A stretch of 21,616 nt of DNA from a virus: positions 1-21,616 of IMG/VR virus record IMGVR_UViG_3300033149_005412. One strand, 5' to 3'. Made by a program: the position numbers and the translations under genes. Positions 309-21,162 of the stretch are shown piece after piece; positions within the stretch are counted from its first letter, which is position 1, and each line of letters begins with the position of its first letter. The notes beneath the pieces are model-generated. The model had not been told where the DNA came from. It did no database searches and worked only from the letters and a program-made list of their open reading frames with translations.

Positions 309-319
309 TGGAGGTTAAA

Positions 320-993
320 ATGAGAAAATTATTTTTTATATTAGTTTTTTGTTTGTTCAGCAATTCATTATTTGCTGCCACATTTGTTTGTTCAGCAATT
401 CATTATTTGCTGCCACATACAATTATTCAAAATCAGGTGTTAATCTAGATAGACTGAAATATGAAATTGAAAATAGTGATATAACAATAGCTATTGATAG
501 TTTGAATTATGTAGGAACAGATCTGACAATAAATATGAAATCCGAATTATCATCTGAAGAAGAAAATATATTGAATTCTATTGTTAGTTCTCATACAGGA
601 GAACCAATGCCAAATGAAAACAATATGGAAATATTGTTAGGCGAAGGAAAAAATAAAAGACTTAAATTTAAAGGGTATTCGTTTACTGCATATGCTAATT
701 CGGTATCAACATATAATTTTGCAATGCCTTTTGATGCTAATTTGCAAGGTGGAAAATTTTTAGGCACATCAGCAGAAGGAGATGAAGTCTCGTTTATCCT
801 GATGCCTGATACACCATACGAGTACTGGTATGTGGAAAAAGTTAGTTTTCCAGAAGGAACTTTTTTACTTGATTTAATGGAAGATTTTTCTATGAGTCAA
901 TTATTGCCCGAAGGAACACCATTAAGAGTAATATATAAAAACAACAGCGGAACAGATAAAAATATTCATTTTATTATGGTCTATAGATTATAG
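320..993 (+). CDS. Secreted fibre-associated phage protein, frameshifted by a 35-bp tandem duplication
   Basis: ATG at 320 follows a GGAGG at 309-313 and starts a classic signal peptide: MRK, a hydrophobic core (LFFILVFCLFSNSLF), then an AxA-type site at SLFA|AT. As written, this frame stops at TAG 446-448 after 42 residues because positions 348-382 are repeated exactly at 383-417. Deleting one copy joins the signal peptide to the frame ending at 993 and gives a 212-residue protein starting ATYNYSKSGVNLDRL. The mature part has 'LDRLKYEIENSDITIAIDSLNY', 'HTGEP', 'WYVEKVSFPEGT' and 'LPEGTPLRVIYKNNSGTD', which from memory recall a phage family encoded next to tail fibres. An alternative TTG start at 349 would give an odd N-terminus and is less convincing. 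A signal peptide on such a protein is unusual. The function is not known. Confidence 0.65.
348..417 (+). repeat. Perfect 35-bp tandem duplication inside a signal-peptide gene
   Basis: Positions 348-382 and 383-417 are identical over 35 bases. The flanks differ (T before copy 1, A before copy 2; TTT after copy 1, TAC after copy 2), so the unit is exactly 35 bp. Because 35 is not a multiple of three, the second copy shifts the frame and truncates the protein begun at 320. A second duplication of the same length lies at 21081-21150. Confidence 0.97.
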
Positions 994-1006
994 GAGAAAA
1001 TTAAAA

Positions 1007-1270
1007 ATGTCATTTTACAGAACATCACAATTTGGTGAAATTATTTTTTTGAAATCAAGTGGGATTGATTATGTTAATGTTTATTCTGATCCTGAAGATA
1101 AAAATAAAGTTATTTTTCAGTTTGAAGATTCAGATAAAAGACAAAAACTGACAAATGATTTTTATAATCATAAAGGAAAAATAAATGATGCTTTAGGATT
1201 TTTGGATGAAATAAGACATGTAAAATCTATTATTTATAATTATTTGAATTCAGAGAGGAAAGAAAAATGA
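1007..1270 (+). CDS. Hypothetical protein, 87 residues
   Basis: This is a small acidic/basic mixed protein with no recognised motif, signal peptide or membrane segment. The ATG is preceded by AGGAG at 993-997, overlapping the last base of the previous stop codon, so translation is probably linked. The sequence begins MSFYRTSQFGEIIFLKSSG and ends in a charged, probably helical tail (RHVKSIIYNYLNSERKEK). Its stop overlaps the next start as ATGA, which supports a real gene in one transcription unit. No function can be assigned; its place between fibre and neck genes suggests an accessory virion or lysis-region protein, but this is only context. Confidence 0.6.
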   Translation: MSFYRTSQFGEIIFLKSSGIDYVNVYSDPEDKNKVIFQFEDSDKRQKLTNDFYNHKGKINDALGFLDEIRHVKSIIYNYLNSERKEK

Positions 1271-1596
1271 ATGGGGAACAACTTAATAGAGAAACATTAG
1301 AATTAATAAAGCAAGTGCATAGAATGAGTGGTGAAGTAAAAACTTCTATTGCTTCCTTACACGAAAGGGATGTTAAATTAGAAAAAAAATTAGATGAAGT
1401 TCTTAAAGAGATACCTAAAATAGAACAAAATTCAAAAGCCATAGAATCTCATATTAAAGGACATGATATAAGATTCAGAAAAACAGTTATGATAATTACT
1501 ATCATAATAGCAATTGTAAATTTATTGACATCTGTGATAATAAAAAGTTTTGACAAACAAAATATAATAACGCAATCACAGGAGATTAACAAATAA
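1267..1596 (+). CDS. Coiled-coil protein with a C-terminal membrane segment (XhlA/holin-like?)
   Basis: The 109-residue product has a heptad-rich, highly charged helix over about residues 5-65 (HERDVKLEKKLDEVLKEIPKIEQ), then a basic hinge (DIRFRKT) and one strongly hydrophobic segment at about residues 73-92 (VMIITIIIAIVNLLTSVII). It ends in a short polar tail. This coiled coil plus single C-terminal transmembrane helix is the architecture of XhlA-type haemolysin/holin-accessory proteins of phages, and also of some membrane-anchored virion accessory proteins. There is no endolysin next to it, which weakens a lysis call. It overlaps the previous gene by ATGA and touches the next start (stop TAA 1594-1596, ATG 1597). 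The topology is visible; the function is inference. Confidence 0.5.
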   Translation: MNGEQLNRETLELIKQVHRMSGEVKTSIASLHERDVKLEKKLDEVLKEIPKIEQNSKAIESHIKGHDIRFRKTVMIITIIIAIVNLLTSVIIKSFDKQNIITQSQEINK

Positions 1597-2232
1597 ATGA
1601 CATATTTTGATTTTGATCCTATAGAAGGAGAAGATATTTTATATGACATTCATATAGATGATGACTATAATGCTTTTCTTTTAGAGGATATAAAAGTGAG
1701 AAACGTAGTTCTTTTGAAGAATTTTGGTGAAAAAGGATTTCTTTATAAACGCAGATGGGAAGGGGATATTTGTCCTCATGAAACAATAAAAACTCCTTCA
1801 CCTTCATCACCAGAAAGAAGTCCTTTTTTCTCAGATGATTTAAGGGAAGAAGTGGATGAAGATACTAATATGAGCATTATTCATAGATGTCCTGATTGTT
1901 TCGGAACTGGATTTATTGGTGGTTATTATCCTCAAATAGAACTGGGTTTCAGATATGGAGATATGCCAGACAAAAAAATAATATATGAACAGTTTGGTAT
2001 TAAATTATCAGAAGATTTTAATTCATGGACACTTTGGGAACCTGAAATAAAAGAAAAAGATATTATTGTAAGAGAAAATGGTCAAAGATTCAGAGTAGAA
2101 AATACAGCATATAGTTATTGGAGAGGTCATAAATTACATCAGAAAATGAGATTATTATATTTAGATCCAAATGATATAGTTTATAAAGTAACGGATGAAT
2201 CAATAAATGAAGCAATACAAAAATATGAATAA
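1597..2232 (+). CDS. Zinc-ribbon neck/head-completion-type protein
   Basis: The 211-residue protein starts directly after the previous stop. It has a likely metal site made of C59-P-H61 and C98-P-D-C101, the latter followed by FGTGFIGGYY, reminiscent of the CxxCxGxG ribbon of DnaJ. The C-terminal half contains 'KDIIVRENGQRFRVENTAYSYWRGHKLHQKMRL', which matches the general layout of small phage head-closure/stopper proteins (aspartate + hydrophobic, G-x-x-[FY]-x-V, then a polar loop and strand). Its place upstream of the terminator and sheath genes fits a neck component. The cysteines could also be purely structural. The neck role is inference from motif layout and gene order; no close family was recognised. 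Confidence 0.5.
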   Translation: MTYFDFDPIEGEDILYDIHIDDDYNAFLLEDIKVRNVVLLKNFGEKGFLYKRRWEGDICPHETIKTPSPSSPERSPFFSDDLREEVDEDTNMSIIHRCPDCFGTGFIGGYYPQIELGFRYGDMPDKKIIYEQFGIKLSEDFNSWTLWEPEIKEKDIIVRENGQRFRVENTAYSYWRGHKLHQKMRLLYLDPNDIVYKVTDESINEAIQKYE

Positions 2233-2356
2233 AGAAAAAACTGTTCAAATAACAATGGAAATTCCTATTTCTGTGTTTTTTGAAATACTTGAATATATAA
2301 GGCCATTTTTAAAAAAAACAGATTATTGGGAAAAACATATAAAAGAGAAAAAATAG
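2225..2356 (+). CDS. Small ORF of 43 residues overlapping the preceding gene
   Basis: ATG at 2225 lies inside the last codons of the previous gene (stop 2230-2232) and the frame runs to TAG 2354-2356. The product begins MNKEKTVQITMEIPISVFF and ends in a lysine-rich tail (HIKEKK). It combines a short hydrophobic/amphipathic middle (SVFFEILEYIRPFL) with charged ends. The overlap geometry matches other junctions in this operon and the ORF fills an otherwise empty gap, both of which support a real gene. No convincing independent ribosome binding site is visible, so it would rely on translational coupling. The function is unknown. Confidence 0.45.
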   Translation: MNKEKTVQITMEIPISVFFEILEYIRPFLKKTDYWEKHIKEKK

Positions 2357-2379
2357 TTATAAAATATACTAATATATAG
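2357..2379 (+). promoter_or_regulatory. Shared AT-rich promoter-like block, copy 1
   Basis: This 23-base block (core TATAAAATATACTAATATA) is repeated exactly at 18138-18160. Both copies sit in two of the few real intergenic gaps, directly upstream of a ribosome binding site and start codon. The TATAAAATA core recalls T4-type late promoters (TATAAATA), which need no -35 box. A canonical sigma-70 reading is poor because no well-spaced -35 is present. This copy would drive the terminator-sheath-tube block. Confidence 0.5.
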
Positions 2380-2397
2380 AAGGAGATATTGATTTTT

Positions 2398-2988
2398 ATG
2401 GGAATATTAAAGCTTGAATCTGATGCCAAACTGGTCTTTCAAATATTACTTAGAACAGCTTATGGATCAGGATATATACCTGAATTTAAATATGATAAAG
2501 ACAGAGAAAAAAGTTTGATTGATATTAGAAGAGATTTCCCAAAAAGACTTTTAAAATTACCGACAATTGTAGTTGGAGCGTCAGCTGCTGATACATCAAT
2601 AAATGAATTAGGCCCAAATGCTCCAAGAAAAGACATTTTAGATGAAGAACCATATATAGAATATCGAGGATCTTCAACTATAACAGTTAGATTTTCAATT
2701 TTTGCAGGTTCTTCTGATGATAGAGATATGATAACAGATTTTACAGCTTTTTGTCTTAGATTTTTGTTTAGACATAAAGCAGCAGAAAATGGATTTGAAT
2801 ATTCAAAAATAACTGTGGGATCAGATAATCAGCAAACTTTAAACGGAGAACTAGTATTTACACAATCAATAACAATAAATAATTGTTTGACAGAGTTTAA
2901 TTATACAGTTCCAATTGAATTAGTGGATATTATTAATAAGATGAATCTTGATAATATAAAAATAGACGGAGAAAATTTTTATGAATAA
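2398..2988 (+). CDS. Probable tail terminator / tail-completion protein
   Basis: ATG 2398 was chosen, giving 196 residues; the ORF also has an in-frame TTG at 2389, but the AAGGAG at 2380-2385 is too close to it. The protein contains 'DIRRDFPKRLLKLPTIVVGAS', then 'YIEYRGSSTITVRFSIFAGSSDDRDMITDF' and 'FLFRHKAAENGFEYSKITVG', followed by 'ITINNCLTEFNYTVP'. This order (precision strand with alternating residues, R-D-x-[IL]-x-D segment, short helix, late strand ending in an aromatic) fits phage tail terminators such as gpU and T4 gp3, although sequence similarity within that family is very weak. The position just before the tail sheath agrees. It is probably the first gene of a unit driven from the promoter-like block upstream. 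Terminator identity is inference. Confidence 0.5.
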   Translation: MGILKLESDAKLVFQILLRTAYGSGYIPEFKYDKDREKSLIDIRRDFPKRLLKLPTIVVGASAADTSINELGPNAPRKDILDEEPYIEYRGSSTITVRFSIFAGSSDDRDMITDFTAFCLRFLFRHKAAENGFEYSKITVGSDNQQTLNGELVFTQSITINNCLTEFNYTVPIELVDIINKMNLDNIKIDGENFYE

Positions 2989-3005
2989 ATTAGGAGGAAA
3001 ATAAA

Positions 3006-4370
3006 ATGCCTACATTTTCAGTATCGTATATTGAACCAGGTACCTATGTAAATATTCGCACAATATCTATACCAGCAACAGCACCTGGCACAATAAATTT
3101 AGCTATTATAGGAAACGGTAAAAGGGAAAAAAATGTATTAAATGTTGAAATTGTTAGAGGTTCAGGTGACACAGATGAACTTCCATATGATGAAGAAAGA
3201 ATAATTTCTATTAGCCCTCAGATAACGGATGAATATGGTGATATATATAAATCCCCAGATGATTATGAAAAAACAGAATACGAAAATTCTATTACTTGGA
3301 AAGGTAATCAGCCATTAGAAGGAACAAAATATTATGTAAATATGGTTGTTACTAAAACAGAGGAAGAAAATGATTTTGATCCGCAATATATAGAATCAGA
3401 AGATATTGCTTATGATCTTTATGGTAATAGAATGGAAGTGAATTCTATGGATGAATATTGTACATTGCCAACAGCTATTTCACTTGCCATGAGGAATGGT
3501 TCTGGACCCGTAATTGGTGTTCAAGTAAATGAAGAAGATGCTGATCCATATGAAACAGCTCTCAATAAATTACAGTCAGAAGATGTTCAGTTAATAGTGA
3601 TAGCAAAAGATATAGATGCTTCTTTACTATCAGCTTTAAGCACTCATTTAACAAACATGAGTACTTTATTAGAGGGAAAATTTAGAAGAGGTTTAGTAGG
3701 CATACCGAAAGATACTGATAATCAGGAAAATTTTTCTGATATATTATCTTCATATTCTGATTTTGCTTCTGTGAACAATAAAAGACTTGGTTTGATAGGC
3801 GTATCAAATTGTGAAATAAGTACACCATCAGGTAATATGGAAATAGGAGCATGGGGATTAGCAGCAGCTATTGGAGGTATAGTATCTAACCCCAATAATG
3901 ATCCAGGTGAACCAATAACAGGAAAATTAGTTACAGGATTTGAATCTATTAAAGATAAATTTATTAGAAAACAGAAAAATAGAATCGCTGGCAATGGAGT
4001 AACTATTGTGGAAAAAGATGGAGCTGTGAATATTATAAGACATTTCTTGTCAACTGATATGTCAACTCCTGCCACACAAGAACTGAAAATCACAGGAATA
4101 GCAGATTATTTTGCTATATTGCTTATTAAGACACTTAATGCAGTGGTTGTTAACACAAGAAATTTAGGAACAGAAACAATTAATAATATAAAAGCGATTA
4201 TTAATTTATTATCAAGTGCCCAAGTTGATAATAGAATATTAGAAGAGCCAGCAAGAAATGTTTCTGTTGTGAGAAGTGAAATAGATCCAAGACAAATGAA
4301 TGTTGGATTAGAAATATTACCAGTCGGTGATGTCAATTGGATATACATCGATATGGGAGTTGTATTTTAA
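3006..4370 (+). CDS. Contractile tail sheath protein
   Basis: The 454-residue product forms the contractile outer sheath around the tail tube. It opens like sheath proteins, MPTFSVSYIEPGTYVNIRTI followed by an alanine/proline stretch and 'NLAIIGNG'. The middle contains 'YETALNKLQSEDVQLIVIA', a count of helix-strand typical of the sheath core, then 'FRRGLVGIPKDTD' and 'GLIGVSNCEIS'. The C-terminal part has 'RIAGNGVTIVEKDGAVNIIRHFLSTD' and closes with 'VGLEILPVGDVNWIYIDMGVVF', the usual C-terminal strand used to interlock neighbouring subunits. The length is at the compact end of the family. It has a strong AGGAGG at 2993-2998 and is followed 18 bases later by the tube gene, the conserved sheath-tube order. 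This call establishes the contractile tail type. Confidence 0.92.
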   Translation: MPTFSVSYIEPGTYVNIRTISIPATAPGTINLAIIGNGKREKNVLNVEIVRGSGDTDELPYDEERIISISPQITDEYGDIYKSPDDYEKTEYENSITWKGNQPLEGTKYYVNMVVTKTEEENDFDPQYIESEDIAYDLYGNRMEVNSMDEYCTLPTAISLAMRNGSGPVIGVQVNEEDADPYETALNKLQSEDVQLIVIAKDIDASLLSALSTHLTNMSTLLEGKFRRGLVGIPKDTDNQENFSDILSSYSDFASVNNKRLGLIGVSNCEISTPSGNMEIGAWGLAAAIGGIVSNPNNDPGEPITGKLVTGFESIKDKFIRKQKNRIAGNGVTIVEKDGAVNIIRHFLSTDMSTPATQELKITGIADYFAILLIKTLNAVVVNTRNLGTETINNIKAIINLLSSAQVDNRILEEPARNVSVVRSEIDPRQMNVGLEILPVGDVNWIYIDMGVVF

Positions 4371-4388
4371 AATAGGAGGATAAATTAA

Positions 4389-4952
4389 ATGCCAAATATT
4401 CCACAAACCAAATTAAGGTTACAGCCATATATAACTATTAGCACAATAAAATCAGACGAAGAAGGCGGCGGCGGGGCACAATTGCAAACACCAGAAGATA
4501 TATTGTCGATAGTGGAAGGTGGGAAAAAATTAACTCAGTTAGGTGCTATACAGAAAGTTGATATAAAGCAAACAAGAACAATAAACCAATGGAGGAACTT
4601 GGATGCTTCAACATATGGTAAAATAGTTGAAACGTATCCTGGATTACCAAATTATTCATTGACACTTGATAGATTAGTTCTTTATGAAGAAAACGTATTA
4701 GAGGCTTTTGGGTTTGATGGTAGTGATTTAATTGAGCAATTTAAACCGTTTTTAATAATTATTTCTTTGTTTGGTCCCGAAACTGCAAAAACAGAAAAAT
4801 CTAATTACACATGGATTTATCATAATTGCTGGTTTGAAAATTTTGGATTGTCATTTGATATAGAAGCAGGTAATCTTAAAATGAATCAATCTACTAATGT
4901 GGCTACTGCAGGTGTTATACCATCAAAAAAAGTAATTACATACGAAGATTAA
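4389..4952 (+). CDS. Tail tube protein, copy A
   Basis: The 187-residue product directly follows the sheath gene, the normal place for the inner tube protein. It carries 'TRTINQWRNLDASTYGKIVETYPG' followed by 'YSLTLDRLVLYEENVLEAF', the pattern of T4 gp19-like tubes in which a strand reading x-L-x-x-x-R-x-x-L-Y precedes the outer helix. The C-terminal part has 'YHNCWFENFGLSFDIEAGNLKMNQSTNVATAG'. A glycine run (EEGGGGAQ, near residue 28) forms a GC-rich spot in an AT-rich gene and probably marks a flexible loop. It shares the late CWFE segment with the next gene, so the two are paralogues. Which one forms the bulk tube cannot be told from sequence. Confidence 0.75.
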   Translation: MPNIPQTKLRLQPYITISTIKSDEEGGGGAQLQTPEDILSIVEGGKKLTQLGAIQKVDIKQTRTINQWRNLDASTYGKIVETYPGLPNYSLTLDRLVLYEENVLEAFGFDGSDLIEQFKPFLIIISLFGPETAKTEKSNYTWIYHNCWFENFGLSFDIEAGNLKMNQSTNVATAGVIPSKKVITYED

Positions 4953-5005
4953 ACAATAATTAAAAATTAAAATCCCTTGCTCCATGAATCAACAGGAGAA
5001 ATATA

Positions 5006-5575
5006 ATGCCATATAGAAGAGGAAGAATACCATATACTGAAGGCAGATTAGCACAATCTCTTATAATCAGAGCATATAATATAAAGGATAATTATAATTC
5101 AGAAAAAAATCCATCTGATTATAGCGCTGGTAAGATAATAGGTGCTTGTACTGAATTTAATAGAATAGAAAAAAGAACAACTATAAAAAGGAAATCAATA
5201 GGCAAAAAAGGCATGAGACCTTTTCATGTTATACCCCAATCAACAGATATTGAATTGAGTCTCAAAAGAGTTTCTTTATACAAAAAAGAATTTTTGTCGG
5301 AAATTGGGGGGATTTCCGGCTCTCTTCTTCATCAGGATAGACCATTGATATTACAGGAAAGTCAGACAACACCAACAGGAAAAGTAGAAAATTATCAATA
5401 TCATGATTGCTGGTTTGAAACAAATCCAATAAATTATAATATCATGGGAGATTTGTTAATTATACAAGATATAAAAGTATCAGCAGCTTATATGAAACCA
5501 ATAGGAGCTGCTTTTGGCGGCTGGTCATGGATAATAAATCAATCAGTTAATGTATTAAAAGATTATTCATTATAA
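5006..5575 (+). CDS. Tail tube-like protein, copy B
   Basis: The 189-residue product is a diverged paralogue of the preceding tube protein. It keeps 'RIEKRTTIKRKSIGKKGMRPFHVIP', then 'TDIELSLKRVSLYKKEFLSEI', and 'YHDCWFETNPINYNIMGDLLIIQDIKVSAA', which lines up with YHNCWFE...L..NQSTNVATA in copy A. The start follows AGGAG at 4993-4997. A GC-rich hairpin-like patch (5298-5318, six G's in the loop) lies inside the coding sequence without breaking it. Possible roles are a second tube subunit, a tube-initiation ring or the terminal ring contacting the baseplate or neck. The gene lies between the tube and the chaperone, a common place for a second tube-like protein. The paralogy is visible; the specific role is unknown. 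Confidence 0.65.
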   Translation: MPYRRGRIPYTEGRLAQSLIIRAYNIKDNYNSEKNPSDYSAGKIIGACTEFNRIEKRTTIKRKSIGKKGMRPFHVIPQSTDIELSLKRVSLYKKEFLSEIGGISGSLLHQDRPLILQESQTTPTGKVENYQYHDCWFETNPINYNIMGDLLIIQDIKVSAAYMKPIGAAFGGWSWIINQSVNVLKDYSL

Positions 5576-5587
5576 GGAGAAATTAAA

Positions 5588-6091
5588 ATGAAAGAAAAAA
5601 TTGAAAAAAAACTGGAAGTAGTAGAAAAGATTAAAGAAAATGTTGTTGAATTATCTGCAATAGATAAATTAGAACAATTGATTTTTGAAGGCAAACATGA
5701 AAAAGAAATAAAATCTATCAAAGGACATGTGATAAAAATGAAAGTGTTATCAGATGAAGAAAGAAGTAAAGCATATAAATTGGCTAATTTTAATGAAGAA
5801 TTGTTTGCCGAAGAAACTGATAATATGTCTGATGAAGAAAAAGAAGCTTTTGCAGATAAAATAATTGATGAATTTGCCAAAACCAAATGGGCTTTGTTGT
5901 CATATGCTATTATTGAAATAGATGGCACTTCAATGATAGATATTGATAAAAAAGTTTATATGGAAAGAATAAAAAAATTCAATCCTGATGTAGTTGATTT
6001 ATTATACCTTGAATATAGAAAGATGACTGATGAGCATTTTGAAAGGGTAGCAGATTTATCATCTTTTAAAAAAAAACAAAAGACACAGTAA
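5588..6091 (+). CDS. Tail assembly chaperone (short, unshifted form)
   Basis: The 167-residue product is acidic, mostly helical and lysine/glutamate rich, lies directly upstream of the tape measure gene, and has the size of a lambda gpG-like tail assembly chaperone. These proteins bind the unfolded tape measure and recruit tube subunits, and are not kept in the virion. The sequence includes 'LSDEERSKAYKLANFNEEL', 'FAKTKWALLSYAIIEIDG' and 'FNPDVVDLLYLEYRKMTDEHFERV'. The last of these, followed by a loose charged end (SSFKKKQKTQ), resembles the C-terminal helix of this family. The gene ends just after a run of nine A's that allows entry into the downstream frame. The start has AGGAGA at 5576-5581. 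Confidence 0.75.
   Translation: MKEKIEKKLEVVEKIKENVVELSAIDKLEQLIFEGKHEKEIKSIKGHVIKMKVLSDEERSKAYKLANFNEELFAEETDNMSDEEKEAFADKIIDEFAKTKWALLSYAIIEIDGTSMIDIDKKVYMERIKKFNPDVVDLLYLEYRKMTDEHFERVADLSSFKKKQKTQ
6068..6076 (+). promoter_or_regulatory. A9 slippery site for -1 frameshifting in the chaperone gene
   Basis: Nine consecutive A's read as three lysine codons (AAA at 6068, 6071, 6074). An A_AAA_AAA heptamer at 6070-6076 lets both decoding tRNAs re-pair one base back. In the -1 frame the last upstream stop is TAA 6067-6069 and the frame is open from 6070 to the TGA at 6373-6375, while the zero-frame stop is TAA 6089-6091. The shift must therefore happen inside 6070-6091, exactly where the A-run lies. 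RNA polymerase slippage on A9 could give the same product. I saw no strong downstream pseudoknot. Confidence 0.75.
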
Positions 6092-6375
6092 GTAACATAA
6101 TTTTATGGACAATATGTGATTATTTTAAGGTTTTGCCAAATGATCCGAATGTGAAATCACTTACAGAATTTCAACGCAGATGGATATATTATAATATATT
6201 ATCAGATAATGAAAAACACATAAAAGACTTGGAGCAACTTGATAATAGAGTGAATGAAACAAGTTATAAAATAGGTAATACAGAATATACAAAAACATCA
6301 TATCAAGTTGATGATGATGTATTTGAAGAGAGATTGAGAAAACGCAAGGAAAGAAAAAATGCCAGAAACTCCTGA
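6076..6375 (+). CDS. Frameshift extension of the tail assembly chaperone (GT-like)
   Basis: This is the -1 frame partner of the preceding gene. Joined after codon 163 it adds 99 residues and makes a 262-residue fusion (GT-like, as in lambda gpGT). The connecting part reads 'TKDTVSNIILWTICDYFKVLPNDPNVKSLTEFQ', which looks like normal protein and not random sequence, and the rest ends in an arginine/lysine-rich tail (RLRKRKERKNARNS). A stand-alone start would have to be TTG at 6133, with only a poorly spaced AAGG upstream; the residues before it are in frame and protein-like, so I prefer the frameshift model. Its stop overlaps the tape measure start at 6359. The final T-like domain would contact tube subunits. 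Confidence 0.7.
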   Translation, partial: TKDTVSNIILWTICDYFKVLPNDPNVKSLTEFQRRWIYYNILSDNEKHIKDLEQLDNRVNETSYKIGNTEYTKTSYQVDDDVFEERLRKRKERKNARNS

Positions 6376-8257
6376 TTTTTCAGAACAACAAAAAAATTTG
6401 TTAGAACAACTTAGCAGAGTAAAAGTAGAATTTAAAGATTTTGGTGAGATAATGACTAATTTGTCAGATGTTGGCGGCAAACAAAGTTCTACAATAAAAT
6501 CTTTAAAAAATGATATGAATCTTTTAACTGCAGTATTGAGTGAGGTTAGGATACGAACAAAATTGCTTAAATCTCAAGGAAAAGATGTTGCTGATCTATA
6601 TTCAATTCAGATAAAACTAACAAATGAATTAGCTAATAGTTTAAAAAAACTTGTTCCATCTTCAAGAGCTGAAATAGATTCAATAAAAACAAGAATAGAT
6701 ACCTTTGACGATTTAATAAATAAAGAAAAAGAAAACATTAAGGTAATTCAAGAAAGAGGAGAAAATTTAGAAGAATTAAAATTTCACGAAGAAACTTTAA
6801 CAGATTATTTAGTTGCCCAAGATAAATTAAAATCTGAATTGATTAGAAAAGAGACAAGTAGAATAAAAGAAGAATATGCTAGTCGTGGTGGTTTGCATAG
6901 AAAATGGATGCTCATTTCACAAGAAATGACAGAGAAAGTTTTTAGCGGTTTTCAAACAGTTTTTGGCACAACTACAGCAGAAGCCCTTCAACCGCTCATA
7001 AAAACTGTTGGCGGCATGGCAGTGCCTTTTTTAGCTTTAAATCAAGTATTAAAAACTTTATGGGGATCACTTGGAAGAACTGTGGAATTCATGGGAACAA
7101 TGCAGCAGTTTGGCGGTGTTGCTGGCAGAGCATCAGAAATGGGAATGTTAAGAGCAAGAGTAATGGGAGCTTCTATGCTGACTATGTTAAGCGCAGAAGA
7201 ATCACAAAAATTATATACTACGGCAGTGGAAGAACATCTATATGCATTAGCAGATGCTAATGAATTATATGATGAACATGGAAATATGCAAAGAATGACC
7301 ATTGCCACCACAAGAGAATTGGTGGAACAAACTGCAAATGTTACATTTGCAGTTCAAAGACTTGGCAAAACAATTGGTCTAACAAATGAACAATCAATAT
7401 CAGTTGCATCTCAATTATATAACAGATTCAATGTTGAATTAAATAAATCGGCAAGATATATGAATTTAGCAGCTTCAATGGCAAGACAAATGCAAGTATC
7501 ATTTATGGAATTTTTTGAACCATTAAGTAATGTAGCATCAGATCTTGCTTTTATGGATGTAAGTTTTGATCAAATTTTAGGCAATTCTGCTATCATGATG
7601 AGAGCTATGGATGATCTATCAAGGGCAGGCGAAAGATTTTGGGCTGATATTACGCCTGAACAAAAACTTAGAATTTTTACTGAAGGTGTTCAAAAATTAC
7701 ATAATATAACAGCAGAAATGGTTATGGCATGGAAGGGCGGATTAGCGCCTGGAGAAACATTAGGAGAAGCATATGTTAGTGCATTTGAAATGGGGCCTAT
7801 TCAGAAAGGTATTTTAGGAGTAGAAAAAGCTTTTGAACTAGGGTTTCAAAGATTTGGCAAGACAGCAGAAGAACAAGCAGCAGTTATACAGCAGATGATA
7901 GGTTTGGAAGGTAGAGAAGGAATGAGAATAACACAAACACTTATGAAAGCTGCTGAAAGATTTTCTCCAGAACAAATAGTAAAAATGACTCAACCAGAGT
8001 TATTAGATGAGCTTCAAAGATTAACTGGTATGACAGAAGCAGAAAGAATGGAATTAGGATCGGTAATGAATGCCGCATCAAAAGAACCATTGGAATTGAT
8101 AAAAGATATATTGCAAAAAATGCTGGAACAAGTAAGTACTATTGCGTCATCACCATTATTAAGATTGGGTTTTGGTAGAGCGAGATCACTTGTAGGAACT
8201 CCATCATCAACACCTACAGGAGTGGCGAGAATAAGAGGATTGGAAGCAATTAAATGA
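6359..8257 (+). CDS. Tape measure protein
   Basis: The 632-residue product is mostly helical and lies right after the chaperone pair, where the tape measure always sits. Residues 1-170 are rich in coiled-coil heptads (SQLLE/KELL style charged helices). Around residues 207-232 a hydrophobic glycine-containing stretch (ALQPLIKTVGGMAVPFLALN) could be the membrane-active part ejected into the host. The rest has methionine-rich amphipathic helices ('GRASEMGMLRARVMGASMLTML', 'LNLAASMARQMQ'). The length sets tail length: at about 1.5 Angstrom per residue, near 95 nm. The C-terminus (SSTPTGVARIRGLEAIK) is flexible and basic. It is moderate in size for a myovirus. The start overlaps the chaperone extension by 17 bases. 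No peptidase motif was seen. Confidence 0.85.
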   Translation: MPETPDFSEQQKNLLEQLSRVKVEFKDFGEIMTNLSDVGGKQSSTIKSLKNDMNLLTAVLSEVRIRTKLLKSQGKDVADLYSIQIKLTNELANSLKKLVPSSRAEIDSIKTRIDTFDDLINKEKENIKVIQERGENLEELKFHEETLTDYLVAQDKLKSELIRKETSRIKEEYASRGGLHRKWMLISQEMTEKVFSGFQTVFGTTTAEALQPLIKTVGGMAVPFLALNQVLKTLWGSLGRTVEFMGTMQQFGGVAGRASEMGMLRARVMGASMLTMLSAEESQKLYTTAVEEHLYALADANELYDEHGNMQRMTIATTRELVEQTANVTFAVQRLGKTIGLTNEQSISVASQLYNRFNVELNKSARYMNLAASMARQMQVSFMEFFEPLSNVASDLAFMDVSFDQILGNSAIMMRAMDDLSRAGERFWADITPEQKLRIFTEGVQKLHNITAEMVMAWKGGLAPGETLGEAYVSAFEMGPIQKGILGVEKAFELGFQRFGKTAEEQAAVIQQMIGLEGREGMRITQTLMKAAERFSPEQIVKMTQPELLDELQRLTGMTEAERMELGSVMNAASKEPLELIKDILQKMLEQVSTIASSPLLRLGFGRARSLVGTPSSTPTGVARIRGLEAIK

Positions 8258-8946
8258 CAACAAGACGTTTAAAAACAAGAGAAGTGCATTTATATATCAG
8301 CTTTTATCCAAAAGTAGTTTTAACAGAAGTTAATAATCTTCAAATAGATTATCCTCAATTAATAGGATTCAAAGAAGGATTAACGAAAAATTTTGATTGG
8401 TATTGGAGAACTGGAATAGTAACTATAACCATTCAAGGGAATTCATATATAGGAGCTTTTGTTCCGGAAAAACAATTTGATAGAGTAGATAAAGATATGA
8501 AATTGATAAAACAATATCTTCAATCTTTTAGAGAAATAACTGTTAATCAATCAAGAGAAATGACTTTATGGATATTTGATGATTCGGGCGATACAGAATT
8601 TTATGTTGGTAAAATATCGGATTTTAAAACAACCGAATCATCAGAAAAACCTTTTTATATATCTTACAATATAACTTTTAAATCTACAAAATATAATACT
8701 AGTTTAGAAAGTATTAAAGAATTAGCATTATTAGATGCTTCTCAAAAGTTTTTTACAAGACAAGGCTCAATCGAATTTGAACAAAATATAGAAACAATTA
8801 ATAAATTAATTGAAGAGAGAAAAATAACAGAAGAGGAAATGGTGGTGTCTGATGTTACAAATCCAAAAGAAATAAAAGGTGTAAAATCCAAAAAGTTAGA
8901 AGAACAACAAGAAATTAATCCTCTTATTTTACAAAGAAAATTATGA
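8254..8946 (+). CDS. Probable baseplate / tail-tube initiation protein
   Basis: The 230-residue product overlaps the tape measure stop by ATGA and the next start by ATGA, so it is translationally coupled on both sides. Its first part is strand-rich ('REVHLYISFYPKVVLTEVNNLQIDYPQLIGFKEGL', 'WYWRTGIVTITIQGNSYIGAFV'). A charged helix follows at the end. The segment 'FYVGKISDFKTTESSEKPFYISYNITFKS' recalls the hub-adaptor/distal-tail and LysM-type baseplate proteins, in which 'F...ESSEKPFxxxYxxxF' marks a strand pair that binds the tube. Position between the tape measure and hub agrees with a role connecting tube and baseplate. I could not name a specific family, so the role is inference. Confidence 0.55.
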   Translation: MTTRRLKTREVHLYISFYPKVVLTEVNNLQIDYPQLIGFKEGLTKNFDWYWRTGIVTITIQGNSYIGAFVPEKQFDRVDKDMKLIKQYLQSFREITVNQSREMTLWIFDDSGDTEFYVGKISDFKTTESSEKPFYISYNITFKSTKYNTSLESIKELALLDASQKFFTRQGSIEFEQNIETINKLIEERKITEEEMVVSDVTNPKEIKGVKSKKLEEQQEINPLILQRKL

Positions 8947-12944: not shown

Positions 12945-12946
12945 AT

Positions 12947-13666
12947 ATGCAGATAGTATTAGCACAAGTAACAAATGTGGATAAAAACAGGCAATTGGTT
13001 GATGTGATGGACTTTACCACTGGCAATGTGTATAAAGGAATATCACTTGATAGTGAAGTAAATTTTCAACAATTACCAAAAAGGGGATCTATTGTGGCTC
13101 TTTTGCTTGATAAAATAAGTGCATCAACAGGCCAGCGAATATTAAAAATATGGGGAACAGGAAAAAAGTTCAGAAGGCAATTAGAACCAAACGAAGTTCA
13201 AATTCAGGCTGGTGATGAAGATGTTATTGATTCTGGAGCTTATTTGTTTCTTGATAAATTTGGAAATGTAGAACTATCAGATGGATCTTTCAGAAATATG
13301 ATTCAGATTGATCAGGAAACAGCAAGCATTATAACAAAATCAAGCAATTTTTATTTTACTAATTTTTCTAATTCAGAAATATATGGAGACGAAGATGGAA
13401 ATATAGTTATACAAAATACATCAAATGGTTCAAAAATAGAGTTATCTAGAACTGGTAAAATAACTATTGTAGCAGGAACAGATATAGATATAGAAGGAAA
13501 TAGGATTAATCTCGGATTTGGAGCAGAAGAAATGAACGTATTGGGGAATAAATTAATGCAATTGTTCAATAATCATGTGCATACATCACCAGTTGGACCA
13601 ACTGGAGTTCCCACAATACCTATGACAGAAGAAGAACATTTAAGTAGTAAGGTAAGGGTAAAATAA
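12947..13666 (+). CDS. Baseplate spike protein with HxH tip
   Basis: The 239-residue product is a gpV/gp45-like spike. The N-terminal ~100 residues form an OB-fold-like barrel ('VLAQVTNVDKNRQLVDVMDF', then 'PKRGSIVALLLDK' and a basic strand), followed by a repetitive narrow beta-helix region ('DGNIVIQNTSNGSKIELSRTGKITI' and 'GTDIDIEGNRINLGFGAEE'). The end carries 'LFNNHVHTSPVGPTGVPTIPM', where H210-V-H212 is the HxH tip motif that binds an iron ion in P2 and Phi92 spikes; residues after it are a short C-terminal tail. A trimer would cap the hub and puncture the outer membrane. Gene order hub, spike, wedge is typical. The tip motif and domain order make this one of the surer calls. Confidence 0.85.
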   Translation: MQIVLAQVTNVDKNRQLVDVMDFTTGNVYKGISLDSEVNFQQLPKRGSIVALLLDKISASTGQRILKIWGTGKKFRRQLEPNEVQIQAGDEDVIDSGAYLFLDKFGNVELSDGSFRNMIQIDQETASIITKSSNFYFTNFSNSEIYGDEDGNIVIQNTSNGSKIELSRTGKITIVAGTDIDIEGNRINLGFGAEEMNVLGNKLMQLFNNHVHTSPVGPTGVPTIPMTEEEHLSSKVRVK

Positions 13667-14184
13667 TGTTTTTTGCACCACAAATAACACAAACAGTACA
13701 ATATCAAGAAGAAGAAAAAATAGAGCCTTCTGATAATCAAAAAAAATTATTGAGTTCGTTAGGGATAACAATTATGAAATCTCTTAGACCAATATTAGAA
13801 ATGTGGATATCCCAGTTAAGAGCTCAATTGATTATATATACAAATAAAAAACTTGAAAATATTTTAAGACAAAGACAGATAATAAATGATAAAGAAATAA
13901 TAGAAAGAGGGGTTCAGATTATAGAAAAAGGAGCATCATACGCCAATTCTTTACCGATAGAAGCATTGAAGGGAATACCGTTTTTATATGAATTAGCGAA
14001 TAAATCAAGAGATATTTTAGATCAATCATCAAGCAGAGCAAGAAATTGGGATTATACAATAAATATGATAAACGATAAAGAAATGGCTTATGATGTTATT
14101 ATTCAAAAACTTGATTCGCTCATAAGACAAGGGAAAGGCATTTTAGATCAGATAGAAATATATTTGGAAAGAGGAACAGTATAA
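13666..14184 (+). CDS. Hypothetical baseplate-region protein, helical
   Basis: The 172-residue product sits between the spike and the gp25-like wedge, with TAATG overlaps at both ends (13664-13668 and 14182-14186), so it is translated as part of the baseplate set. It is mostly helical, with a hydrophilic N-terminal tail (QEEEKIEPSDNQKK), then 'LRPILEMWISQLRAQLIIYTNKKLENILRQRQ' and two further charged amphipathic helices. There is no signal peptide or catalytic motif. It could be a wedge connector, a spike chaperone or a small structural adapter. No family was recognised; its operon position is the only guide to function. Confidence 0.6.
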   Translation: MFFAPQITQTVQYQEEEKIEPSDNQKKLLSSLGITIMKSLRPILEMWISQLRAQLIIYTNKKLENILRQRQIINDKEIIERGVQIIEKGASYANSLPIEALKGIPFLYELANKSRDILDQSSSRARNWDYTINMINDKEMAYDVIIQKLDSLIRQGKGILDQIEIYLERGTV

Positions 14185-16047: not shown

Positions 16048-16532
16048 TGTTGAACATAGAAGAATTAAAAAATAATTTTTATGAACTTATATATGAAGAA
16101 TATATATATGACGTGGAAGAATTAGCAGATAATTGGCAAATAACTTATACTGATTATGCAGTTAATGGACAAACATTATTTGCATCTATATCGGAAATAA
16201 AAGAAGATGCAAAACAGTTATTGACAAATGGATTAAAAATTATTTTTGAAAAATTGTATGATGATCAAAATATAGCTATAGATAGTTTTCAATCAGATAT
16301 GAATTCTTTATTTGCTGCTTTTTGGTTAACTCCGTCAAATATTGTATTTGCTCCCAATCCGATAACAACAATAGTTGTTTCTGCTGGTTCATTTAATTTT
16401 CAATCATTAAAAAATAAATATATTGATTCAAAACAAGAAGGCATTAATTTATTATCACAAATATTTGATAGTTATACAAGAACAGTTCAAATATCAGATT
16501 CATCTATACCACAGACAGGATATTTAACATGA
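16047..16532 (+). CDS. Hypothetical baseplate protein between gpJ-like and gpI-like genes
   Basis: The 161-residue product begins with a TAATG overlap and ends ATGA-overlapped with the next gene, so it belongs to the baseplate operon. The N-terminus is acidic and helical (NIEELKNNFYELIYEEYIYDVEELADNW). The middle contains 'FAAFWLTPSNIVFAPNPITTIVVSAGSF', a hydrophobic strand-rich stretch. It ends in a flexible tail (SIPQTGYLT). No family was recognised. Proteins in this place are often wedge or adapter components needed to attach fibres, but no motif supports that here. Confidence 0.6.
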   Translation: MLNIEELKNNFYELIYEEYIYDVEELADNWQITYTDYAVNGQTLFASISEIKEDAKQLLTNGLKIIFEKLYDDQNIAIDSFQSDMNSLFAAFWLTPSNIVFAPNPITTIVVSAGSFNFQSLKNKYIDSKQEGINLLSQIFDSYTRTVQISDSSIPQTGYLT

Positions 16533-18130
16533 TAGATTATGAAATAATACAACATGATTTATATGTAGAAATTGATTTTTCTTATGATGATGAAATCATT
16601 AATAATATATCTGTATATAAAATCAGGTATGGGGAAACAGAAGAACAACAGGAATTTGAAATAATCGCTGACGAATCTGAAACTTATAATTTTAAAATAG
16701 CAAGTTCAAGACCTTTGACAATAGAAATAAAAGCTTTTGATAATGAAACAGAAATAGAATCAGTTTCTTTTGAAGCAAAAGCAAGATTAATATCACAAAC
16801 TTTTTCTGTTATAAGTTTTTCATATAACAAAGAAATAGAAAATAATATATGGTATTATAAAATTATTTATGATGGAACAGAAGAAAAACTAATTGCTAGC
16901 CAATCACCGATATATAATTTTATTATTGAATTAGAAGAAATAAATGAAGTGCAAGTAATTGCAGTAAATTTTGAAGATGATGAAGTGGAAGAAATAGAAT
17001 ATGAATTTGTTGATTATGTATCACCATTGACAATAAATGAATTATATGGATATTGGTCTGATCATTCAAAACAAAATCATAGGATAATGCATTGGAAACT
17101 TCCTATAATTATTTTTCAACAATCAGAATTTCTTAATTATGAGTTGGAGTTGAAAGAAGATGATGATGTTAAATATTATACAGAAACTAGTGAAGCAGAA
17201 GAGTTTGTTGAATTTCAAAACGGAAAATTTGTGAAAGCTTTTGCTATTGATGTCAAAAACAGAAAACAAAAAATTGATAGGAATTTTCAATGGAGAGTAA
17301 GAACATTTTTTCAACAAGAAGGAATTTATGGCATATGGAGATCTCCTTGGTCCGAATATAGGCATTTTGTTTTAAAAAAACAAAATGATTTGGAAGAAAC
17401 AGAAAACAGATTTTTTGATTTAGCAGACGACAATATATATAATAAAGATATTTTAAAATTGTCATTGGAAGAAAGGGAAAAATATAATGTATGGAAGGTA
17501 ATGAGATTTCTTTCAAAAACAATAGAAGAAGAGAATTGGGATTTAGAAAGAAAGGTAAGTGATTTAGATTTTGAAGAAATAAGAGATAATGCATTGCAAA
17601 ATTTTTCTAATTTTCATTTATCTATTAACAAAAAGGAATCTGAAACATGGTCAGAATATAGATATAAATTATTAAAAATAAAAAATGCTTTTGCAAGTTG
17701 GTCAGGGAGATATAGAGCAGTAGAAGAAGTTGTGGAAGCATTTACTGGCATAAAACCTATTATATCACCTTTTAAAATGTCTTATGGATGGGTATTGGGT
17801 GATTTTGGAGTTGAAAGCCATATATTAACAAAAACTTTTAATTATTTTATAAATGAAGAAGGTAATACATATAAAGAAGTTAATAAAGAATTACCAGGGA
17901 CATACAAGGATTCAACCTTATATCATAAAAACACATATGGTTATGGAATATTAATAAAAGTATACGATCCTTTTGAATTGTTAGATGATGAAGACAAACA
18001 ATTAATGGAGCATATAGTTAGAAAGATAATTCAAAAACATTATAAAGTATATTTTGAATATATTTTGGATTTTGCTCCTGAATTGCTTGTTTGGGATGTT
18101 GGCATGTGGGATGTTGGCATGTGGGATTAA
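16529..18130 (+). CDS. gpI-like tail protein with two N-terminal beta-sandwich-like repeats
   Basis: The 533-residue product appears to be a fibre-attaching tail protein I. Residues 1-165 form two similar strand-rich units (VEIDFSYDDEIINNISVYKIRYG and VISFSYNKEIENNIWYYKIIYDG), a possible FN3/Ig-like pair; a third beta domain follows with 'RNFQWRVRTFFQQEGIYGIWRSPWSEYRHF'. The C-terminal half has 'LNLEERxKYNVWK', 'IRDNALQNFSNF' and 'WSEYRYKLLKIKNAFASWSGRYRAVEEVVEAFTG', then 'GILIKVYDPFELLDDEDKQLMEHIVRKIIQKHYKVYFEY', the layout of gpI/DUF2313 proteins. It ends with a WDVGM repeat (18092-18127). The order gpJ, small gene, gpI, fibre is conserved. The extra N-terminal repeats are unusual for P2-type gpI. 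Confidence 0.65.
   Translation: MIDYEIIQHDLYVEIDFSYDDEIINNISVYKIRYGETEEQQEFEIIADESETYNFKIASSRPLTIEIKAFDNETEIESVSFEAKARLISQTFSVISFSYNKEIENNIWYYKIIYDGTEEKLIASQSPIYNFIIELEEINEVQVIAVNFEDDEVEEIEYEFVDYVSPLTINELYGYWSDHSKQNHRIMHWKLPIIIFQQSEFLNYELELKEDDDVKYYTETSEAEEFVEFQNGKFVKAFAIDVKNRKQKIDRNFQWRVRTFFQQEGIYGIWRSPWSEYRHFVLKKQNDLEETENRFFDLADDNIYNKDILKLSLEEREKYNVWKVMRFLSKTIEEENWDLERKVSDLDFEEIRDNALQNFSNFHLSINKKESETWSEYRYKLLKIKNAFASWSGRYRAVEEVVEAFTGIKPIISPFKMSYGWVLGDFGVESHILTKTFNYFINEEGNTYKEVNKELPGTYKDSTLYHKNTYGYGILIKVYDPFELLDDEDKQLMEHIVRKIIQKHYKVYFEYILDFAPELLVWDVGMWDVGMWD
18092..18127 (+). repeat. 15-bp in-frame tandem repeat, 2.4 copies, at the gpI-like C-terminus
   Basis: TGGGATGTTGGCATG occurs at 18092-18106 and 18107-18121 without mismatch, followed by TGGGAT before the stop TAA. 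It encodes WDVGM twice plus WD, the last residues of the protein. The unit is a multiple of three, so copy number can change without a frameshift. This repeat differs in length and frame effect from the two 35-bp duplications. Confidence 0.9.
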
Positions 18131-18137
18131 AAATTGT

Positions 18138-18160
18138 TTATAAAATATACTAATATATAG
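18138..18160 (+). promoter_or_regulatory. Shared AT-rich promoter-like block, copy 2
   Basis: This block is identical to 2357-2379 over 23 bases (core TATAAAATATACTAATATA). It lies in the 42-base gap before the first fibre gene and runs directly into its GGAG ribosome binding site (18160-18163). If transcription starts near the end of the block, the leader would be very short. It would let the fibre genes be expressed separately from the baseplate operon. Confidence 0.5.
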
Positions 18161-18172
18161 GAGATAAATTAA

Positions 18173-18541
18173 ATGATAGAAAGAATAGTATTTCAACCAT
18201 TAACAACAGCAAAAGCAGCAGAAGTTAATTATAACTTTGAAAAGATATTTTCTGGTGATTTTCATCAAAAACTTCCTGTTTGGAATTCTGAAACCAGACC
18301 AGAAACTCCACAAATTAACAGAACAATTGGGTTTAATACTGATTATCTCGGAATGGAAATATATATAGATGCCGAAGGAACGGGAAAGTGGTTAATAATA
18401 AATGGCAGATGGACAACACACCCAAATGCTGTTGAAGGAAATTTAGCACCTGGCTCAATGGGATTTAATTATAACAATGGGCAATGGGAGGGATATACGG
18501 GTAAAGACGGAGAACCAGATGAGTGGGTGTTTTTAGGATAA
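18173..18541 (+). CDS. Short tail-fibre-like protein
   Basis: The 122-residue product starts with 'MIERIVFQPLTTAKAAEVNYNFEKIFSGDF', a typical opening of baseplate-attached fibre proteins. It then holds two short glycine-aromatic modules: 'NRTIGFNTDYLGMEIYIDAEGTGKWLIINGRW' and 'GSMGFNYNNGQWEGYTGKDGEPDEWVFLG'. These 'GFN...W' units are common in phage fibres and collar domains, where an N/D-rich loop and a Trp pack in a small beta domain. No signal peptide is present, unlike the next gene. The preceding gap holds the promoter-like block. The next gene begins 14 bases after its stop. A fibre or fibre-connector role is likely; the receptor is unknown. Confidence 0.6.
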   Translation: MIERIVFQPLTTAKAAEVNYNFEKIFSGDFHQKLPVWNSETRPETPQINRTIGFNTDYLGMEIYIDAEGTGKWLIINGRWTTHPNAVEGNLAPGSMGFNYNNGQWEGYTGKDGEPDEWVFLG

Positions 18542-18555
18542 TAAAGGTCATGAAT

Positions 18556-21162
18556 ATGAAAAAAATTATTTTATCAATAAGTTTATTTTTCTTGTCATCA
18601 ATAGCATTTGCAAGAAATTACGGAGTTTATCCTATCACTTCTCCTATTGCAGGTGTTAGATTAGCTGTTGTTGGAGAAATAGCCGTTAGTAGCTCACCAG
18701 CAAATATGCCTATTATATTGCTGGAGTCCGATGGAACAATTAATGGTATTGTAGGCAATTTTCAAGAAATTAATGTATCATCGGCTTCATCAGCAACTGG
18801 AGATTTTGATTTAATTTTAACTTCTTCTATTACAGGAAAAGGATATGGAGTAAATATTATTACTGATACTACAATAACAAAGGATTTATTTGTTGATGGT
18901 TTGCTTGGCATAGGAACTAATATTCCATCAGAAAAACTTCATGTAAATGGAAATATACTATCTGATTATGGGGTGATAGGTTCCACAGGAACTTTTAATC
19001 ATATATATGTTTCATCAATTACAGGAACTTCACCATTAAATATTATTGGAGGAGCAATTATAAAAAATGGAAATTTGGAATTGGGTGTAAATAATATAAT
19101 TATTGAAGGCCTTGTAGATGGTAGAGATATTTCGATTCTCGGAAGCACAGTAGATCAAATTCAGATAGACACTACAACTTTAAGAAATGATTTATCAACT
19201 GAAACTTTTGAAAGAATAGCAGCTGATAATCAGATAGCTATAGACACTACAACTTTAAGAAATGATTTAAATGATCATATAGCATATACAACTACAACTT
19301 TCAACGAGGTAGCTATAGACACTACAACTTTAAGAAATGATTTGGAAGGTTATTTGAGCTATACAACTACAACTTTTAATCAGATAGCTATAGACACTAC
19401 AACTTTAAGAAATGATTTATCAACTGAAACTTCTGAAAGAATAGCAGCTGATAATCAGATAGCTATAGATACTACAACTTTAAGAAATGATTTAAATGAT
19501 CATATAACATATACAACTACAACTTTTTATGATGTTGGTTTATCAACTACAAGTCTTTATGAAAGTAAAGTATCAACATCAGGTGATAATGTTAGTGGAG
19601 ATATAAATTTCAAAAATGCTGCCATACGATTATATGATGGATTTGCAAATCATAAAATAAATGAAGATGGTACTGCACTTAAAATTGAAGGCTCAGAACC
19701 AAATAGTTATGTACTCATGGATGGTCCATTATATATGATTGATGGGGGAATAAATCTTAATGGACAACCATTATATGATAATGTAAGTGAAGCAGTAAAC
19801 ATTACTACAAATGTAGTTATTTCGGGAAATTTGTCCGCAGATGAAGGAGATTTTAATCATATATATGTTTCTTCTATCACAGGAAAATCCCCAGTTAACG
19901 TATTATCAGACATAAATTTTAAAGAGGATATTAATCTTACACCTGGAAAATTATTCAGATTTAATGACAACTCATATTTTAATGCAAATGCAGGAACGGT
20001 TTATTTATCAGCAGGAACAGGAGACAAAATACAAATTAAAAGTAACAACGAAATAGCTTTAGAAACTACAGCAGATAATAGTGAAATAGATTTTAAAACC
20101 AATATAGATTTGGAAGATAATAATTTAAGGAATGTGTCAACAGGAACATTTAAAAATGTAAAAACTAACGTGATAGAAAATAACGAAAATTCTAATATTG
20201 TTTTTAAAGTCAATAATTCTACAACTCATATTGTAAGTGATACTGATTTTAAATTTTATAAAGACATAAATGCTTTGGATAATGATTATGTATCAACAGG
20301 AAAAATCACTGTTTCATCAGGTATTTTTAATTATATAAATGTTGATCGCATTTATGCTCTTGAATCGCATATTTCTAGTGAGACAGTAACTTTAACAACA
20401 GCAACATATTTGTCAGTTGATGAAATATTTGCAAATGACGGATTAATAATTATTAGAGATGATATTGATATGGATGCAAATAATATTTTGAATGTTTCTA
20501 CTATTACAGGAACTTCTCCTGTTAATATTAGTGGCGGAATTAAAGTGTTGAATGGGAATGTGGATTTAAACGGAAATAACTTATTCGATGGTACTGGAAA
20601 TGTATTTGTAAACGATTCCATTCAAACAGCAGGAAATGTAAGAATTGATGGAGGTTATTTATTAGATTCAGATGGCAACGCTGCAGCGAAGGTAGATAAT
20701 CAATCGATTTATCTCGGAGGTGGTGAACATACATATGTGAACAATAACGGCCAATTAACAATTGGAAATGGCCAAAAAGCAGCTATTACGGGTGTGACAG
20801 AAGCACAAGGAGGGATACAAACAAATGATATAGATCCCTATATTGGAACTGAAATAAATATCAGCAATAAGGTTAATATATCTACTTTGAATGTTGCAGG
20901 TGAGTCTGATTTTAATGGCAATTTAGATATGAATGATTTTGCAATTCAAAATATTGACTGGACAAACACAGATAAAGATTTAGAAAATCAATTAATAATT
21001 AATTCATCAACTTCTCCAATTAATGATTCTGATTTAACAGCTAAAAAATATGTTGATGATTTGGTAGCTAATTCAACTTCAACATTGTTGGACAATGAAA
21101 CAGATCCTATTTTTAAACATTGTTGGACAATGAAACAGATCCTATTTTTATTTCTTGGATAG
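18556..21162 (+). CDS. Large secreted-type tail-fibre protein, truncated by a 35-bp tandem duplication
   Basis: ATG 18556 is preferred because AAAGG (18543-18547) is 8 bases away; ATG 18550 is too close. The protein begins with a strong signal peptide (MKK, then IILSISLFFLSSIAFA, cleavage before RNYG). It then has 'IGTNIPSEKLHVNGNI' at about residues 118-135, 'LVDGRDISILGSTVDQ' at about 185-201, five 25-residue repeats at about 203-328, and 'FNHIYVSSITG' type repeats near 147 and 433. As assembled it stops at TAG 21160-21162 after 868 residues, with a junk end (KHCWTMKQILFLFLG), because 21081-21115 is repeated. Without one copy the frame runs on to the window end. Similar domains occur in trimeric phage fibres that end in an S74 chaperone, which may lie beyond the window. 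Confidence 0.75.
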   Translation: MKKIILSISLFFLSSIAFARNYGVYPITSPIAGVRLAVVGEIAVSSSPANMPIILLESDGTINGIVGNFQEINVSSASSATGDFDLILTSSITGKGYGVNIITDTTITKDLFVDGLLGIGTNIPSEKLHVNGNILSDYGVIGSTGTFNHIYVSSITGTSPLNIIGGAIIKNGNLELGVNNIIIEGLVDGRDISILGSTVDQIQIDTTTLRNDLSTETFERIAADNQIAIDTTTLRNDLNDHIAYTTTTFNEVAIDTTTLRNDLEGYLSYTTTTFNQIAIDTTTLRNDLSTETSERIAADNQIAIDTTTLRNDLNDHITYTTTTFYDVGLSTTSLYESKVSTSGDNVSGDINFKNAAIRLYDGFANHKINEDGTALKIEGSEPNSYVLMDGPLYMIDGGINLNGQPLYDNVSEAVNITTNVVISGNLSADEGDFNHIYVSSITGKSPVNVLSDINFKEDINLTPGKLFRFNDNSYFNANAGTVYLSAGTGDKIQIKSNNEIALETTADNSEIDFKTNIDLEDNNLRNVSTGTFKNVKTNVIENNENSNIVFKVNNSTTHIVSDTDFKFYKDINALDNDYVSTGKITVSSGIFNYINVDRIYALESHISSETVTLTTATYLSVDEIFANDGLIIIRDDIDMDANNILNVSTITGTSPVNISGGIKVLNGNVDLNGNNLFDGTGNVFVNDSIQTAGNVRIDGGYLLDSDGNAAAKVDNQSIYLGGGEHTYVNNNGQLTIGNGQKAAITGVTEAQGGIQTNDIDPYIGTEINISNKVNISTLNVAGESDFNGNLDMNDFAIQNIDWTNTDKDLENQLIINSSTSPINDSDLTAKKYVDDLVANSTSTLLDNETDPIFKHCWTMKQILFLFLG
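19165..19539 (+). repeat. 75-bp (25-residue) tandem repeat, five copies, in the fibre gene
   Basis: The motif IDTTTLRNDL recurs with its conserved G of the GAC/GAT codon at 19168, 19243, 19318, 19393 and 19468, an exact 75-base step. The 15 residues between alternate between STETxERIAADNQIA and a tyrosine/threonine-rich form. Copies 1-2 and 4-5 match best, a 225-base super-repeat. A decayed sixth copy (VGLSTTSLYESK) follows at 19540. All units are in frame. Confidence 0.92.
21081..21150 (+). repeat. Perfect 35-bp tandem duplication disrupting the fibre gene
   Basis: Positions 21081-21115 and 21116-21150 are identical over 35 bases. The copy moves the frame by one and brings in TAG at 21160-21162. 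It has the same length as the duplication at 348-417 but an unrelated sequence, apart from a weak shared TTGTTnnnCAAT near the 5' end of each unit. Confidence 0.97.

Follow-up and report, generated by a model that had tools for sequence, protein, structure and literature searches.

Virus record IMGVR_UViG_3300033149_005412 of the IMG/VR database, analysed here over its entire length of 21,616 bases (the window), contains two perfect tandem duplications of 35 bases, designated unit 1 and unit 2, and each of them shifts the reading frame of a gene with a signal-peptide-like N-terminus (genes A and B). With a probability of roughly 90%, both duplications are an assembly artefact, namely overlaps left untrimmed at joins between sequence pieces. 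As biology, the 35-base duplications are probably not a real feature; the phage itself most likely carries one copy at each place, and genes A and B are probably both open in it. This reading is favoured because of the equal length of the two steps, the perfect copies, the near-nil match beyond the step, the placement near the record ends, the peptides shared across each seam, and a 127-base parallel in a related phage. Apart from the seam peptides, the same observations agree with a first-pass annotation, made from the sequence alone, which had proposed an untrimmed 35-base overlap with 383-21115 as one node. The window consists of A, C, G, and T only, without Ns, and is AT-rich, with a guanine plus cytosine (G+C) content of 29%.

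Tandem Repeats Finder placed the duplications at 348-418 and 21081-21150, each with a period of 35 and 100% match. When the window was compared with itself for exact matches of at least 18 bases at offsets 8-2999, offset 35 gave two runs, of 36 bases (348-383) and 35 bases (21081-21115), and nothing else. The two perfect, frame-breaking duplications of the first-pass annotation were thus recovered by both methods, and no further exact 35-base tandem duplication is present elsewhere in the window. The sole further tandem row of the self-match scan in the window is an exact, in-frame 15-base repeat (WDVGM) at 18092-18127, at the extreme C-terminus of a protein of 533 amino acids.

Units 1 and 2 are unrelated in sequence, yet they have an equal step of 35 and copies that are 100% identical. 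As 35 is not divisible by 3, the reading frame is shifted at both places. The match exceeds the step by 1 base in unit 1 (348-383 is identical to 383-418) and by 0 bases in unit 2, and an extension of 0-1 base is expected from composition alone (P 0.78 per seam). Since the window is the complete record, the duplications lie near both ends of the record: 347 bases precede unit 1 at the left end, and 466 bases follow the copies of unit 2 at the right end. For two randomly placed points, the probability of lying within 500 bases of opposite record ends is about 0.001. A direct terminal repeat of 10-200 bases is absent from the window, and a terminal-repeat reading was rejected on this ground. The coordinates of the units, the genes, and the putative pieces are given in Table 1.

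Table 1. Features of the window related to the two 35-base duplications.
Feature	Position	Strand	Remark
Gene A	320..993	+	Signal-peptide-like N-terminus MRKLFFILVFCLFSNSLFAA; frame changes at unit 1; body without family match
Unit 1, first copy (35 bases)	348..382	+	Identical to 383-417; end of the left piece if the overlap was left untrimmed
Unit 1, second copy	383..417	+	Start of the central node if the overlap was left untrimmed
Gene B	18556..21616	+	Fibre-like; signal-peptide-like N-terminus MKKIILSISLFFLSSIAFA; frame changes at unit 2; runs off the record
Unit 2, first copy (35 bases)	21081..21115	+	Identical to 21116-21150, run of exactly 35; end of the central node if the overlap was left untrimmed
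Unit 2, second copy	21116..21150	+	Start of the right piece if the overlap was left untrimmed
Putative left piece, 382 bases	1..382		G+C 0.296, against 0.289 in the node
Putative single assembly node, 20,733 bases	383..21115		Bounded by units 1 and 2
Putative right piece, 501 bases	21116..21616		G+C 0.331, against 0.289 in the node

Gene A begins at ATG 320 with MRKLFFILVFCLFSNSLFAATFVCS... and meets a stop after 42 residues, while its second frame, ...CLFSNSLFAATYNYSK..., is open to 993. The duplication of unit 1 splits this gene within its signal-peptide-like N-terminus. For gene B, which begins at ATG 18556 (alternatives are 18550 or GTG 18523), the first frame meets a stop at 21160-21162, and the second frame, ...LLDNETDPIFISWIE..., has no stop between the second copy of unit 2 and the record end. 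The shift is located about 2.5 kb downstream of the signal-peptide-like N-terminus, so the two genes are broken at non-equivalent places. Across each seam one peptide is read twice, from the first copy in the upstream frame and from the second copy in the downstream frame, which is expected of an untrimmed overlap: CLFSNSLFAA at seam 1 and LLDNETDPIF at seam 2. A codon-usage score trained on 16 interior genes of the window was computed for the stretches 3-308, 421-990, 18559-21114, and 21120-21614 (the short pre-seam part of gene A is unscored), and the expected frame scored 0.25-0.33 per codon, the other two frames below zero. Because of the shared seam peptides and the codon-usage scores, both genes look intact until recently, or still intact. 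A chimera of unrelated sequences was rejected, as the seam peptides and codon usage on the two sides fit together. The G+C fraction of 400-base segments has a mean of 0.290 and a standard deviation of 0.035.

Most likely, the record is a scaffold made of a left piece of 382 bases, a node of 20,733 bases, and a right piece of 501 bases. In a de Bruijn graph, pieces that are neighbours have end sequence in common, and the k-mer size fixes its length. Pieces sharing 35-base ends were probably joined here untrimmed, so that each overlap is written twice. What was found within the record is consistent with such joins, as the lengths are equal (35 and 35), the copies are identical without microhomology beyond chance, and the flanks belong together. 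Contig ends are described as sharing an overlap of maxK or maxK-1 (PMC10914622; PMC7111523), and the papers disagree as to which of metaSPAdes and IDBA-UD gives k and which k-1.

A similar duplication was found in LR745208.1, the deposited genome of an uncultured phage of 485 kb. It has an exact 127-base tandem duplication at L003:9738-9996, which breaks an open frame. Two other records of the same phage, G001 (485,040 bases) and G002 (68,374 bases), carry one copy each; in both of them the matches of the two query halves share 132 bases, and the unit occurs once in each of the loci L027-L030. The frame is open across the site in G001 (L028), the one record of the two that was translated. The 127-base duplication is probably an assembly error in LR745208.1. 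The number 127 stands in a metaSPAdes k list (PMC10914622).

Several points weigh against an untrimmed overlap as the source of the 35-base duplications. Scaffolding may leave a "duplicate sequence" at overlapping flanks, but in this published error Ns are placed between the copies (PMC7111523), whereas the window record has none. The COBRA-quoted k lists (PMC10914622) rise by increments of 20 from 20 up to 100 or 140 for IDBA_UD, and they are 21, 33, 55, 77, 99, and 127 for metaSPAdes, and 21, 29, 39, 59, 79, 99, and 119, 141 for MEGAHIT; none of these quoted lists holds 35 or 36, so no assembler was matched. In LR745208.1, the match of the 127-base duplication runs 5 bases past the step (P about 0.01 with the composition of the window), so this parallel may have arisen by slippage, and the three records of that phage are perhaps not from independent reads. 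Finally, an isolate, Citrobacter phage CF1 ERZ-2017, has a frame-breaking exact duplication of 26 bases in a hoc-like gene (L063:16095-16152). Two coding sequences are annotated there and the frame changes across the site, while the aligned stretch of the relatives Merlin and NM4.3 spans 525 bases against 551 in CF1, a difference of 26 bases.

The case of CF1 speaks for another explanation, that units 1 and 2 are two independent genuine tandem duplications produced by replication slippage, in the phage or in part of its population, and caught in the consensus. So does the 32-base exact duplication of LR745208.1, which, like a 27-base duplication of the same genome, is present with 100% identity also in G001, in contrast to the 127-base one. 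This explanation seems unlikely. An equal step would have to arise twice by coincidence, and both events would have to fall within about 500 bases of the record's two ends. Slippage or recombination usually begins at short direct repeats, and these make the matching run longer. The microhomology expected of slippage is absent from the window, since the match exceeds the step by just 1 and 0 bases, compared with 6 bases in CF1.

The background rate of exact tandem duplications also stands against two independent events. It was estimated in about 2.13 Mb, comprising LR745208.1 (485 kb), 91 kb of Bacillus phage G (a jumbo phage of 497 kb), 22 phage-G-like IMG/VR loci (300 kb), and 76 T4-like IMG/VR loci (1.26 Mb). 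For the T4-like sample, the best 80 of 108 stretches encoding a relative were used, and these amount to 76 distinct loci, which by record number were sorted by the author into 39 isolate-type and 37 metagenome-type loci. Several of the 22 phage-G-like loci, with equal identities and E-values, seem to be the same phage taken from different assemblies. Fourteen exact tandem duplications with a period of 15-400 are listed in this background; the list drops rows whose unit itself repeats a shorter unit, and one 18-base row is apparently listed twice (L060 and L087). The period is a multiple of 3 in 11 of the 14, and none has a period of 35. The other periods are 127 and 32, both in LR745208.1, and the 26 of CF1. 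Duplications of at least 30 bases with a period that is not a multiple of 3 therefore number two, both in LR745208.1, and none of the 22 phage-G-like loci (0/22) has one. At 2 per 2.13 Mb, two such duplications in one record of 21.6 kb have a probability of about 2e-4, or about 4.5e-4 with the 26-base case counted; all P values for the duplications are post hoc, because the window was picked for them.

Very improbable, and less likely still than slippage, is a switch in which gain or loss of a fixed 35-base step toggles two secreted surface proteins of a jumbo-phage relative, in a way unlike known phase variation. The first-pass annotation had raised it as an alternative, and beyond the location of the units nothing positive was found in its support. 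Both units stand in the sole two genes flagged by a crude signal-peptide scan of the window (ATG starts of the + strand), and one unit in each of two signal-peptide genes is expected by chance with P of about 0.009. The association of the units with signal-peptide genes is accounted for by the position of genes A and B at the two ends of the record; as these are the end genes, this probability overlaps with that of the end placement. The same crude scan of the loci L002-L025 flagged three + strand open reading frames (ORFs) of at least 150 amino acids, none of them with a typical signal peptide by eye. Units 1 and 2 are not placed alike, one being in the signal peptide of gene A and the other about 2.5 kb into gene B. 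No recombinase is named among the window proteins scanned, which are 19 of 23 against PHROGs and 10 against Pfam, many of them without a match; the four outside these scans are encoded at 5588-6091, 6133-6375, 8254-8946, and 13666-14184. An exact 35-base tandem duplication is absent from the 22 related loci. Phase-variable tracts usually consist of many copies of short units, and several copies of a short unit would be expected of slipped-strand phase variation, while the window has two 35-base copies per place.

The sequence TTGTTnnnCAAT is found once in every copy of both units, and neither strand of the window has it anywhere else. In random pairs of 35-mers from the window, a match of 9 of 12 positions occurred in 36% of 600 pairs when any register was allowed and in 6.6% of 2000 pairs when the registers differed by one base at most. 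The shared sequence is within chance and not remarkable, as the first-pass annotation had allowed.

Genes A and B had also been described as secreted fibre-type proteins and as the only two signal-peptide genes. The signal-peptide part holds in the crude scan, but the fibre part is weakly supported for gene B and unsupported for gene A. The body of gene A has no Pfam or PHROGs match at E 0.1, and the predicted structure of this body (190 amino acids) has a mean predicted local distance difference test score of 46.7, too poor for use. Gene B has one weak PHROGs match, phrog_404 minor tail protein (E 2.6e-5). It also has imperfect repeats of 75 bases (25 residues) at 19165-19527, which keep the frame. 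A link of the 35-base units to these repeats was rejected, and the repeats are set apart because their 75-base period keeps the frame.

According to its protein matches, the window is a tail-module fragment of a phage distantly related to jumbo phage G, and signal-peptide-like proteins (genes A and B) stand at both ends of this module. The PHROGs scan recognized a tail sheath (phrog_2839, E 1.5e-21) and two baseplate proteins, a wedge protein matching phrog_6 (E 2.4e-23) and another protein matching phrog_975 (E 2.2e-6). Phage G is the best match of the sheath (29% identity, 68% of the query covered) and of the wedge (27% identity, 57% of the query covered), and the wedge is matched also by LR745208.1. 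The gene order of phage G from sheath to wedge is kept for five window proteins, two of the five matches being weak (E 0.005 and 0.004). A small protein encoded at 1007-1270 matches DUF5659 (PF18903, E 9.4e-12). The region 5588-6375 encodes a tail assembly chaperone-like pair, with an A-rich, slippery-looking run TTTTAAAAAAAAAC near the end of ORF 5588-6091 and the second frame open to 6375. The second part of the pair has a weak match (24 residues, E 0.005) downstream of gp181 of phage G, where gp182 is annotated as a join of two pieces. A programmed -1 frameshift is possibly used in this pair.

Relatives of the window were found by a search with a three-sequence wedge alignment, which gave the 22 phage-G-like IMG/VR loci. 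Single-protein scans of viral contigs with the sheath, gene B, the wedge, and the right-hand piece gave no relative; a scan of genome contigs with the sheath alignment gave no match, and neither did megablast of the window against phages or tblastn with gene B, the body of gene A, a protein of 1333 amino acids, and the right-hand piece. Because the protein, tblastn, and contig searches were empty, one-copy homologues of genes A and B were not found. Exact patterns of unit 1 and unit 2 revealed no relative carrying either, although near-identical records may lie outside the searched set. The motif TDPxFxxW or TDPxWxxW had 0 matches in 135 loci.

The duplications are a warning for the use of public virus records, in which exact tandem duplications of equal length near record ends can split genes. 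Genes split by duplicated overlaps may pass for phase variation or pseudogenes. Such cases could be flagged by a screen for exact two-copy tandem duplications that have one length per record or assembly, lack microhomology, and break a frame. The deposited huge-phage genome LR745208.1 is a probable second case.

Compared with known systems, the window shares with phase-variable tracts subject to slipped-strand mispairing a change of copy number that puts a surface gene out of frame, but those tracts usually have many short copies, in contrast to two 35-base copies and unrelated units in two genes. The 26-base case of CF1 is likewise an exact two-copy tandem duplication with a frame change. It differs in being found in an isolate genome, in its 6 extra bases as in slippage, and in being a single event away from record ends. 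The duplication of LR745208.1 resembles those of the window in that its two copies are perfect and an open frame is broken, with one copy in two other records; it is, however, a single event with a step of 127, inside a long record, and with an extra match of 5 bases. The overlaps of de Bruijn contigs follow in published cases the largest k (e.g., 99), while the step in the window is 35, but like the window they have an exact shared end of one length per assembly (COBRA, PMC10914622; Chen et al. 2020, PMC7111523). An untrimmed join of such contigs doubles the shared sequence, and we infer that in this record the doubling occurred without a gap.

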